The translations under genes were made by a program, and so were the position numbers. The notes below the pieces were generated by a model. That model was not told where the DNA came from. It ran no database searches and was given only the letters and a program-made list of their open reading frames with translations. Below are positions 62,299 through 64,000 of a stretch of DNA of 64,000 bases, in pieces. Source of the DNA: Christiangramia forsetii KT0803 (lineage in GTDB: Bacteria > Bacteroidota > Bacteroidia > Flavobacteriales > Flavobacteriaceae). Every line of letters begins with the position of its first letter. The first letter of the stretch is position 1. Location: positions 3,476,501 to 3,540,500 of the forward strand of contig NC_008571.1 in the NCBI RefSeq assembly GCF_000060345.1, read 5' to 3'.

Positions 62299-62907
62299 AT
62301 GTCTTTTGAATTACCAAAATTAAAATATGCTTTTGATGCATTGGAGCCACATATAGATGCGAAAACTATGGAAATTCACCATGGTAAGCACCATGCGGGT
62401 TATACTAAGAAACTAAATGCCGCAATCGAAGGAACCGATATGGATGGAAAAAATATCGAGAACATTTTGAAAAATCTTGATAAGTCTAATAAAGCAGTTC
62501 GTAACAACGGTGGTGGATTTTACAATCACAGTTTATTCTGGGAAATTATGTCTCCTGATGGAGGTGGAAAGCCAGAAGGTGAACTTGCAAGCGCGATAGA
62601 TGCTGCTTACGGTTCTTTTGAAGCTTTTAAGGAAGAATTTTCAAAAGCTGCGGCAGGACAGTTTGGTTCTGGATGGGCTTGGCTTTGTGTACATAACGGA
62701 GGTAAAGTAGAAGTTTGCTCAACTCCAAATCAGGATAATCCACTTATGCCAGAAGTAGGTTGTGGTGGAGCTCCAATTTTAGGACTTGATGTTTGGGAAC
62801 ATGCTTATTATTTAAATTATCAAAATAAGCGTCCAGAATATATTGATGCCTTCTTTAATGTAATAGACTGGAAAGAAGTTTCAAGTAGATATGCTAAGGC
62901 AAAATAA
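62299..62907 (+). CDS. Superoxide dismutase (Fe/Mn family)
   Basis: A 202-residue SOD with metal ligands in [21 protein letters not shown] and [19 protein letters not shown], and the FGSGWAWLC region near the active site. Either Fe or Mn could be used; the sequence alone does not decide. It removes superoxide in the cytoplasm. A terminator follows at once, and the small-RNA cluster lies beyond it on the opposite strand. Confidence 0.95.
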
Positions 62908-62935: not shown

Positions 62936-62962
62936 AAAAGGCCGCAGATGCGGCTTTTTTTA
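62936..62962 (+). terminator. Intrinsic terminator after sodB
   Basis: Stem GCCGC-AGAT-GCGGC extended by AAAAG/CTTTT, then a T run. Confidence 0.9.
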
Positions 62963-62986: not shown

Positions 62987-63060
62987 AAAAAAAGGCGGAA
63001 TAAATTCCACCTTTCTTTGCCCCAAATCTACCATGAACTTAACCTACTTATGCTATGGTA
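62987..63060 (-). ncRNA. Putative small RNA, tandem copy 1 (74 nt)
   Basis: Read on the minus strand it begins TACCATAGCATAAGTAGG, folds a first hairpin (TACCAT/ATGGTA, 20-nt loop), has a single-stranded GATTTGGGGCAAAG stretch, and ends in an intrinsic terminator (GGTGGAA/TTCCGCC followed by seven Ts, 62993-62987). It differs from copies 2 and 3 at a handful of bases. A TAnnTTTA box ends 3 nt before the first base. No ORF of note. It does not match any RNA family I can name. Confidence 0.6.
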
Positions 63061-63127
63061 CAATAAATATATATCGAATTATCTTCTGAAATTTAATTTT
63101 TAGACGAAATACCCAGATATTAGTTAA
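63061..63127 (-). promoter_or_regulatory. Upstream region of small-RNA copy 1
   Basis: On the minus strand: TTAACTAAT (63119-63127), then exactly 58 bp to the RNA element, within which lie RTCTAAA (about 63099-63105) and the -7-like TATATTTA (63064-63071). The same words occur at the same distances in copies 2 and 3. Confidence 0.5.
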
Positions 63128-63206
63128 ATAGCTGTTTTTTAGTTTTTTGAGTGTTTGATCGATTAATTTTCTGGTTATAACTAGTTGATACTTCATTTTA
63201 TGTCAT

Positions 63207-63282
63207 AAAAAAAGGCGGAATTAAAATTCCACCTTTTTTTGCCCCAAATCTACCATGAACTTAACCTACTTATGCTATGGTA
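63207..63282 (-). ncRNA. Putative small RNA, tandem copy 2 (76 nt)
   Basis: Nearly identical to copy 1 with a 2-nt longer terminator loop (GGTGGAATTTTAATTCCGCC). Same 5' hairpin TACCAT/ATGGTA, same GATTTGGGGCAAAA linker, same terminal T run (63213-63207). The -7-like box is TATCTTTA. Confidence 0.6.
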
Positions 63283-63349
63283 TATTAAAGATAATAAGAA
63301 TCTATCTTCGATTTTGTTTTTTTAGATGAAGTGCCTGTAAATTAGTTAA
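63283..63349 (-). promoter_or_regulatory. Upstream region of small-RNA copy 2
   Basis: TTAACTAAT (63341-63349), 58 bp to the element, with ATCTAAA and TATCTTTA (63286-63293) at the same offsets as in copy 1. Confidence 0.5.
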
Positions 63350-63420
63350 AATACTGAAATTCAAAAAAGTGAAAAATAATTAAGGGATATTTTGCTACAA
63401 ATTTGGAGTTGAGTAGAAAT

Positions 63421-63494
63421 AAAAAAAGGCGGAATAAATTCCACCTTTTTTTGCCCCAAATCTACCATGAACTTAACCTACTTATGTTATGGTA
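63421..63494 (-). ncRNA. Putative small RNA, tandem copy 3 (74 nt)
   Basis: Same layout as copies 1 and 2, with one change in the loop (ATAACATAAG for ATAGCATAAG). Terminal T run at 63427-63421. It is the copy nearest purF. Confidence 0.6.
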
Positions 63495-63561
63495 TCACTA
63501 AAGTATATAGAAATGAACAACGCACAAAGAATATTAGACCAAGTGCAGTTATATTAGTTAA
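63495..63561 (-). promoter_or_regulatory. Upstream region of small-RNA copy 3
   Basis: TTAACTAAT (63553-63561), 58 bp to the element, with GTCTAAT and a slightly shifted TACTTTA box. Only this copy also has TTTG (63525-63528) at about the -33 position. Eleven bases separate it from the purF stop. Confidence 0.5.
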
Positions 63562-63572
63562 AAGGTATAATT

Positions 63573-64000
63573 TTAATAAGCTCGTCCCTCTTTCCCTTCG
63601 AAAAAGTTCATAAATGCTCTATTTACAACCCGGTTACCTCCTGCAGTGGGATAGTTTCCGGTAAAATACCAATCACCGAGGTTTTTGGGACAGGCCAAAT
63701 GTAGATTATCTACCGTTTGATAAATAACTTTTACCTCTGCATTCACATCTTCATCACATAACAATTCTGAAATTTTATCAGAAATTTCTTCATCGGTAAA
63801 AGGATCATAAATTTCCTTTACAAAATTTTGAACATCCTTATCGTCCAGGTCTACCTGTTCTTTACATTTATTGTAAACTTTTTCTACAATGTCGTATTGG
63901 TTATTATCCTTTAAAAGTTCAAGAGCCGCTCTAAAAGCTACCAGACCTTCTAATCTGGCCATGTCTATTCCGTAACAATCTGGATATCTAATTTGTGGTG
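63573..64000 (-). CDS. purF: Amidophosphoribosyltransferase (5' end beyond the window)
   Basis: Only the C-terminal ~142 residues lie in the window; the frame runs on past the right edge (PQIRYPDCYGIDMARLEGLVAFRAA). The end CPKNLGDWYFTGNYPTAGGNRVVNRAFMNFF is typical of the long Bacteroidota PurF, which opens purine synthesis by making phosphoribosylamine from PRPP and glutamine. The N-terminal glutaminase part cannot be checked here. No terminator is seen before the small-RNA cluster, so read-through into it is possible. Confidence 0.88.
   Translation of the reverse strand, partial: PQIRYPDCYGIDMARLEGLVAFRAALELLKDNNQYDIVEKVYNKCKEQVDLDDKDVQNFVKEIYDPFTDEEISDKISELLCDEDVNAEVKVIYQTVDNLHLACPKNLGDWYFTGNYPTAGGNRVVNRAFMNFFEGKEGRAY

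Follow-up and report, generated by a model that had tools for sequence, protein, structure and literature searches.

The Qrr sRNAs of Vibrio are present in multiple copies and answer to one response regulator, being dependent on Hfq and driven by sigma-54 and LuxO. In Listeria, lhrC1-5 lie in tandem within one intergenic region; LisR is a regulator of the OmpR type and not of the LytTR type, and the seed of LhrC is C-rich. For Qrr or LhrC it has been proposed that several copies bring a benefit of dose and speed, and the usual mode of action of such RNAs is the pairing of exposed motifs with mRNAs. CsrB-type RNAs titrate a protein, and carry many copies of the motif per RNA. To our knowledge, few sRNA circuits have been described in Bacteroidota outside Bacteroides. 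The RNA reported here belongs to this phylum, where the nearest described system by kind is FopS/GibS of Bacteroides, which are likewise multicopy sRNAs of about 70 nt with a TAnnTTTG-type box and a 3' terminator. As a circuit, the closest counterpart is LhrC1-5 under LisR, a set of similar sRNAs with their own promoters and one response regulator (available part of PMC5880928), from a different phylum. The Qrr family is named in the part of PMC11697453 that is available.

The window analysed here, a stretch of 64,000 nucleotides from Christiangramia forsetii KT0803, carries three copies of a unit of 73-75 nt on the minus strand of the gap between sodB and purF. The copy nearest purF occupies positions 63421..63493 (5' end 63493, predicted transcript of 73 nt, R1 95.9 bits, terminator-like hairpin), the middle copy 63207..63281 (5' end 63281, predicted transcript of 75 nt, R1 90.6 bits) and the copy nearest sodB 62987..63059 (5' end 63059, predicted transcript of 73 nt, R1 92.2 bits). 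The flanking genes, named as in the initial annotation, are convergent, with the superoxide dismutase gene sodB at 62299..62907 on the plus strand and the 3' part of purF at 63573..63998 on the minus strand, from where the gene extends beyond the window. Both flanks are conserved with the array, and no regulator gene was found in the gap between them. Right after sodB, positions 62938-62962 of the plus strand hold a separate GC-rich hairpin and T-run, which is probably the sodB terminator.

A core 33-mer searched with up to three mismatches gave three matches in the window, all of them exact, and none in 100 dinucleotide shuffles, while a pattern covering 32 bases of the 5' hairpin, also with up to three mismatches, gave three matches in the 3.80 Mb genome and none for the reversed-pattern control. 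In the complete genome, a single contig of 3,798,465 bases, DNA and pattern searches found no further strong copy, the next-best DNA match having an E value of 0.003 and covering the terminator end alone. The initial annotation had placed an element of about 75 bp in this gap in three copies, and this is borne out by the window and genome searches. The spaced array also stands, with start-to-start distances of 222 and 212 bp compared with the approximate 221 and 214 bp first given. The reading preferred here, to which a probability of roughly 70% is given, is that these units belong to a multicopy family of trans-acting sRNAs switched on by an orphan LytTR regulator encoded between priA and rpsF.

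Every copy reads on the minus strand as a TACCAT/ATGGTA hairpin, the G-rich linker GATTTGGGG, a terminator hairpin and a run of seven T, in agreement with the elements first described for this locus. The TACCAT/ATGGTA stem is as described, but the 5' hairpin is longer, with an inner stem that closes a GUAGG loop, and its predicted fold is ACCAUARC-A-UAA-GUAGG-UUA-A-GUU-C-AUGGU. Between this hairpin and the terminator, the linker AGAUUUGGGGC is unpaired in the predicted fold. In FopS a single-stranded 5' stretch is found where the RNA of Flavobacteriaceae has the GUAGG hairpin. The Rfp sRNAs of Flavobacterium psychrophilum come from the same bacterial family and some of them are conserved in other species, but for Rfp18 pairing is predicted to occur through a third stem-loop, whereas the present RNA folds into two hairpins (available part of PMC9723704).

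Covariation supports this fold. In an unfitted alignment, two-sided changes were found in 14 of 25 pairs, compared with 6.5 for shuffles, and 88.8% of the cells pair versus at most 56.6% for slid versions. The corresponding values for a model-fitted alignment are 20 of 24 pairs (shuffles 9.8) and 97.0% of cells; this alignment is by construction fitted to the model, and takes in two weak plus-strand matches and one incomplete match. Alignment A1 consists of 62 sequences chosen by hand, 123 distinct bodies having passed the terminator rule. The signal comes mostly from the terminator, two-sided changes in the 5' hairpin being present in few sequences and its outer stem varying little. Stem covariation across homologues from Flavobacteriaceae, put forward at the outset as a check of RNA function, was found, strongly in the terminator and in few sequences in the 5' hairpin. 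By contrast with these varying stems, the loop (GUAGG) and the UUUGGGG of the linker are nearly constant across genera.

This pattern bears on two readings in which the units would not be regulatory RNAs. Given that sodB and purF converge and that the terminator hairpin, with its A-runs and T-runs, is nearly symmetrical and gives weak matches on the plus strand as well, the units might be mere bidirectional terminators or insulators between the two genes. This is considered highly improbable, because conservation peaks in the loop of the 5' hairpin and in the linker and not in the terminator, every copy comes with a promoter box and half-sites of its own, and two relocated copies lie away from both sodB and purF. 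It is scarcely credible that the short reading frame ATGGTAGATTTGGGG... encodes a micropeptide, even though 162 of 164 copies contain ATGGTA. Different copies would yield peptides in different frames (MVDLGQ.. versus MVRFG..), a stop codon falls within the RNA in 19 of the 162 and the remaining frames run through the terminator, so that the frames with a stop span from 8 to 112 codons and one of the 162 meets no stop before the end of the locus. Moreover, the letters after the ATG vary as base pairs, and in locus L031 the ATG itself is lost through a change from a C-G to a U-A pair that is compensated in the stem of the 5' hairpin.

The initial annotation had recognised no known family, which agrees with the search of Rfam (4227 families, Flavo-1 included), where nothing reached the gathering score for these units and the window gave two tRNAs alone. 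Neither Flavo-1 nor Qrr was present among the matches listed, sub-threshold ones in the case of Flavo-1. The best score for FopS (RF04319) was 21.1 bits, compared with a gathering score of 56. Both RNAs have in common the stretch UUCAUGGUA..AGAUUU, but homology was not supported, given that 110 of 20000 shuffles reached the alignment score of this 5' seed region in a single comparison, uncorrected for the number of families scanned. A class draw gave FopS matches in 8 of 197 genomes, with none among the seven genomes of Flavobacteriaceae listed, and in the genome of the window the model matched nowhere at E<=0.01. On the other side, the pattern TTCATGGTAN{0,3}GATTT occurs in 87 of 296 genomes of the phylum, mostly as scattered single matches outside the family, and its reversed control matches too, in fewer genomes.

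Upstream of each copy, a -7 promoter box with the consensus TAnnTTTG is recognised on the minus strand by the family profile: TACTTTAG at 63498..63505 for the copy nearest purF (-12 to -5), TATCTTTA at 63286..63293 for the middle copy and TATATTTA at 63064..63071 for the copy nearest sodB. Across 164 distinct promoters, among them those of the three copies, the box spans -12 to -5 counted from the first base of the stem, with conservation of T 89%, A 92%, T 95% and T 92%; these 164 rows come from 69 loci, after removal of near-duplicates and of copies near the locus ends. In the transcriptome of F. psychrophilum the sigma-A box is also located at -12 to -5 (available part of PMC9723704). The promoter box and the hairpin are thus in independent agreement on the predicted 5' end of the RNA. 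Such a sigma-A-like box differs from the sigma-54 promoters of Qrr. On sequence grounds, near-identical non-coding units which each have a promoter box and terminator of their own qualify as a predicted multicopy sRNA. Indeed, the reading of the units as small-RNA genes gains support from the compensated stems, from the near-constant loop and linker, and from the fact that box, hairpin and terminator are in register. The sequence between copies had been described as drifted, and this holds in part, the exceptions being the promoter box and a direct pair of half-sites that are kept upstream of each copy.

These half-site pairs, found with a pattern and a profile, are predicted LytTR sites and lie on the minus strand at 63534..63562 for the copy nearest purF, 63322..63350 for the middle copy and 63100..63128 for the copy nearest sodB. 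The promoters have two direct half-sites 20 bp apart, with a consensus of about GCATTTCATCTA. With a half-site model that was learned from the proximal site and then used to score the best second occurrence, the distance to the second half-site upstream was exactly 20 bp for 129 of 164 promoters, compared with 6 of 164 after shuffling, and the other 35 did not give this exact distance; the proximal half-site starts at about -53 in 125 of 164. In the genome of the window the site pattern is matched exactly at three places, all of them at the RNA genes, and allowing one mismatch adds two sites, versus three for the reversed control. Since the pattern was written from the three copies, it could miss further members of a larger regulon whose sites are looser. 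For FopS, the half-site pair was not seen by eye in five upstream stretches.

The YpdB sites of E. coli have a period of 21 bp, versus 20 bp at the promoters of the present RNA. LytTR sites consist of two repeats of 9-11 nt with a spacer of 11-13 nt, and those of YpdB are direct repeats of GGCATTTCAT, comparable with a half-site of about GCATTTCATC here, although YpdB acts on yhjX and not on sRNAs (available part of PMC4847170). Direct LytTR repeats with 11-13 bp between them have been placed just upstream of the -35 box (available part of PMC6193735). The half-site pairs with their period of 20 bp upstream of the promoter correspond to this arrangement, and the promoters of the RNA are predicted to have the architecture of a LytTR response regulator.

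In several loci of the Maribacter type, the copy nearest sodB has UUUGGGAC in place of UUUGGGG. A divergent linker GATTTGGGACGAAAAGGG is present in the copy nearest sodB of nine loci (L022, L024, L025, L029, L032, L045, L058, L067 and L311), and where their upstream region is seen it has a common CAATACCAGTA stretch instead of clear half-sites. The two features together suggest a paralogue under its own control.

The genome of the window contains nine LytTR genes. The candidate regulator is an orphan between priA and rpsF (about G000:C1:1177580-1178296) with a receiver and a LytTR domain. All nine proteins were searched together in 20 RNA-bearing genomes of the family, hand-picked from those available, and in 14 RNA-lacking ones that are at least 90% complete, leaving out G026 and G045, which are less complete, and G038, which has a diverged unit. 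The gene between priA and rpsF was found in 19 of the 20 RNA-bearing and in 1 of the 14 RNA-lacking genomes (Fisher p=2e-7, ignoring kinship). The cut-off was 1e-45 in the RNA-bearing genomes and 1e-15 in the RNA-lacking ones and, being looser in the latter, biases the comparison against the claim of co-occurrence. This orphan alone among the nine clearly separates both sets of genomes, the other eight giving 16-9, 14-6, 7-5, 5-3, 2-1, 1-0, 0-3 and 0-0 (bearing of 20 versus lacking of 14) in a hand count of rows at E<=1e-45 with each place assigned to its best-matching segment. In all seven loci viewed, the regulator is flanked by priA-like and rpsF-like genes, as named from their sequences. 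The RNA-lacking genome with the regulator, G033, is an assembly of 120 contigs in which the RNA was unrecognised, and arrays can drop out of a fragmented assembly; conversely, G043 has the RNA and, by eye, apparent half-sites, while the regulator was unmatched at the cut-off.

It is possible, although doubtful, that the half-sites belong to another regulator, for instance one of the AraC type, and that the co-occurrence with the LytTR gene reflects shared ancestry. The period of 20 bp falls towards the lower limit of the LytTR range (available part of PMC4847170), the gap between sodB and purF is without a regulator gene, and the co-occurrence counts ignore phylogeny. Against this reading, one of the nine LytTR proteins clearly separates the genome sets, the half-site resembles the YpdB repeat, and the small RNA-bearing genomes G066 and G069 keep the priA-rpsF type as their sole LytTR protein at the cut-off. 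The orthologues of these two genomes (L297 and L296) are without the second acidic residue of the receiver pair (VIDK.., VIDP..), which suggests that phosphorylation may be dispensable. LytTR mutations described in F. johnsoniae concern a gene whose tag adjoins a histidine kinase (available part of PMC10197871), and it was taken as different from the priA-rpsF orphan.

In a DNA search of 119 genomes, 66 had matches at E<=1e-3, namely every one of the 24 genomes of the genus, counting that of the window, 36 of 48 other genomes of the family, and six with weak matches elsewhere in the order; within Flavobacteriaceae, which are a large group with marine and soil members, the RNA was matched in 60 of 72 genomes. 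When the covariance model was run on a class-wide draw of 296 genomes, matches at E<=1.2e-11 were obtained in seven of the 11 genomes shown from the family, and weak ones, with E from 5e-5 to 0.008, in 20 of the 285 genomes outside it. UUUGGGG was present in none of the 20 distant loci and GUAGG in three, as judged from the matched letters in ten of them and from the surrounding stretch in the other ten, and given the missing UUUGGGG these matches are read as terminators. Regarding the genomic setting, 42 of 80 sodB-anchored loci (the best 80 of 588 relatives) carry 94 copies on the minus strand, from one to six per locus, the two plus-strand matches being weak. In a hand count of 51 loci with the exact loop motif, some of which overlap one another, sodB, purF or both were found in 49 and both genes in 38. 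In genomes G030 and G037 one copy is found beside sodB and one beside purF, as though the array had been broken apart.

From these features we infer that each copy would be transcribed from its own sigma-A promoter and end at its intrinsic terminator, and that the orphan LytTR regulator would bind the pair of direct half-sites in front of every copy and turn on the whole set at once, activation being the presumed direction of control. On the RNA, the GUAGG loop and the AUUUGGGG linker would form two exposed, near-invariant surfaces rich in G, whereas the seed of LhrC is C-rich. Through both surfaces the RNA would most likely pair with several mRNAs near their starts, altering translation or stability, and the several copies may serve dose and speed. 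A multicopy regulator of the Qrr or OmrAB type had been proposed from the start, and the predicted response-regulator sites and the co-occurring regulator gene support that model, in which the word regulator is itself inferred.

Candidate targets were sought in 21 genomes of the genus as CCCCAAATC with an ATG no more than 30 nt downstream, and among the matches listed no conserved target was found in the 33 loci with a complement of the linker near ATG, some of which are duplicated sites. Many of the complements fall within long reading frames or on their antisense strand. Plausible sites at gene starts were seen in L249, L198 and L196, one each in different genomes, and none was taken as a target. 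In a recurring CCCCAAATCtcaaatttt stretch, the ATG opens no ORF. In L249 (G005), a reading frame of at least 414 codons, whose beginning resembles a signal peptide, has the CCCCAAATC complement starting 16 bases ahead of its ATG, at about position 491 of the plus strand, and is a target candidate from a single genome. Pairing with the start region of sodB in 17 related loci gave z values from -3.8 to 1.3 (mean about -1.1), 16 of them negative and three below -2. This is only slightly above shuffles and comes from loci that are too related, and sodB was not counted as a target, yet the result is not a clean zero.

The RNA may instead act as a decoy, with the GUAGG loop and the UUUGGGG linker binding an RNA-binding protein, for example one with an RRM, that the copies would titrate. 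Both exposed motifs are near-constant across genera, the searches found no conserved mRNA target, and the FopS sRNAs of Bacteroides bind the RRM protein RbpB, according to the available part of the source. Nonetheless, each motif occurs once per RNA, versus many times in CsrB, and invariant seeds fit equally well the pairing with many mRNAs; this reading is considered improbable.

A tentative extension of the preferred reading, somewhat unlikely in its full form, is that driving the array is the main or only job of the orphan LytTR regulator beside rpsF, and that the RNAs form a core post-transcriptional layer of Flavobacteriaceae, acting through the two G-rich motifs on mRNAs or on an RNA-binding protein. 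If the regulator is dedicated to the RNAs, Bacteroidota would have their own equivalent of LuxO-Qrr or LisR-LhrC, assembled from unrelated components. An RNA family that is present in most of the Flavobacteriaceae genomes sampled, at the same site in almost all the loci viewed and with a candidate regulator, makes the whole circuit testable. No description of the RNA was recognised among the papers that the literature searches listed, but it may already have been detected among the 85 newly described F. psychrophilum RNAs in the supplementary tables of PMC9723704. The paired direct half-sites in the promoters of the RNA, with their predicted LytTR-type architecture, appear to be new.

The two exceptions among the 51 loci with the exact loop motif are relocated copies away from sodB and purF, at about 1594 of L315 (G029) on the plus strand and at about 1554 of L317 (G047) on the minus strand. 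Both lie near a gene that by its sequence resembles those of TonB-dependent receptors, which is possibly due to chance or a hint to a target. G038 (L266/L302) has a diverged unit in which the outer stem and a AGATTTGGGGC linker are retained and the loop is a different one without GUAGG; this unit may represent a sister RNA.
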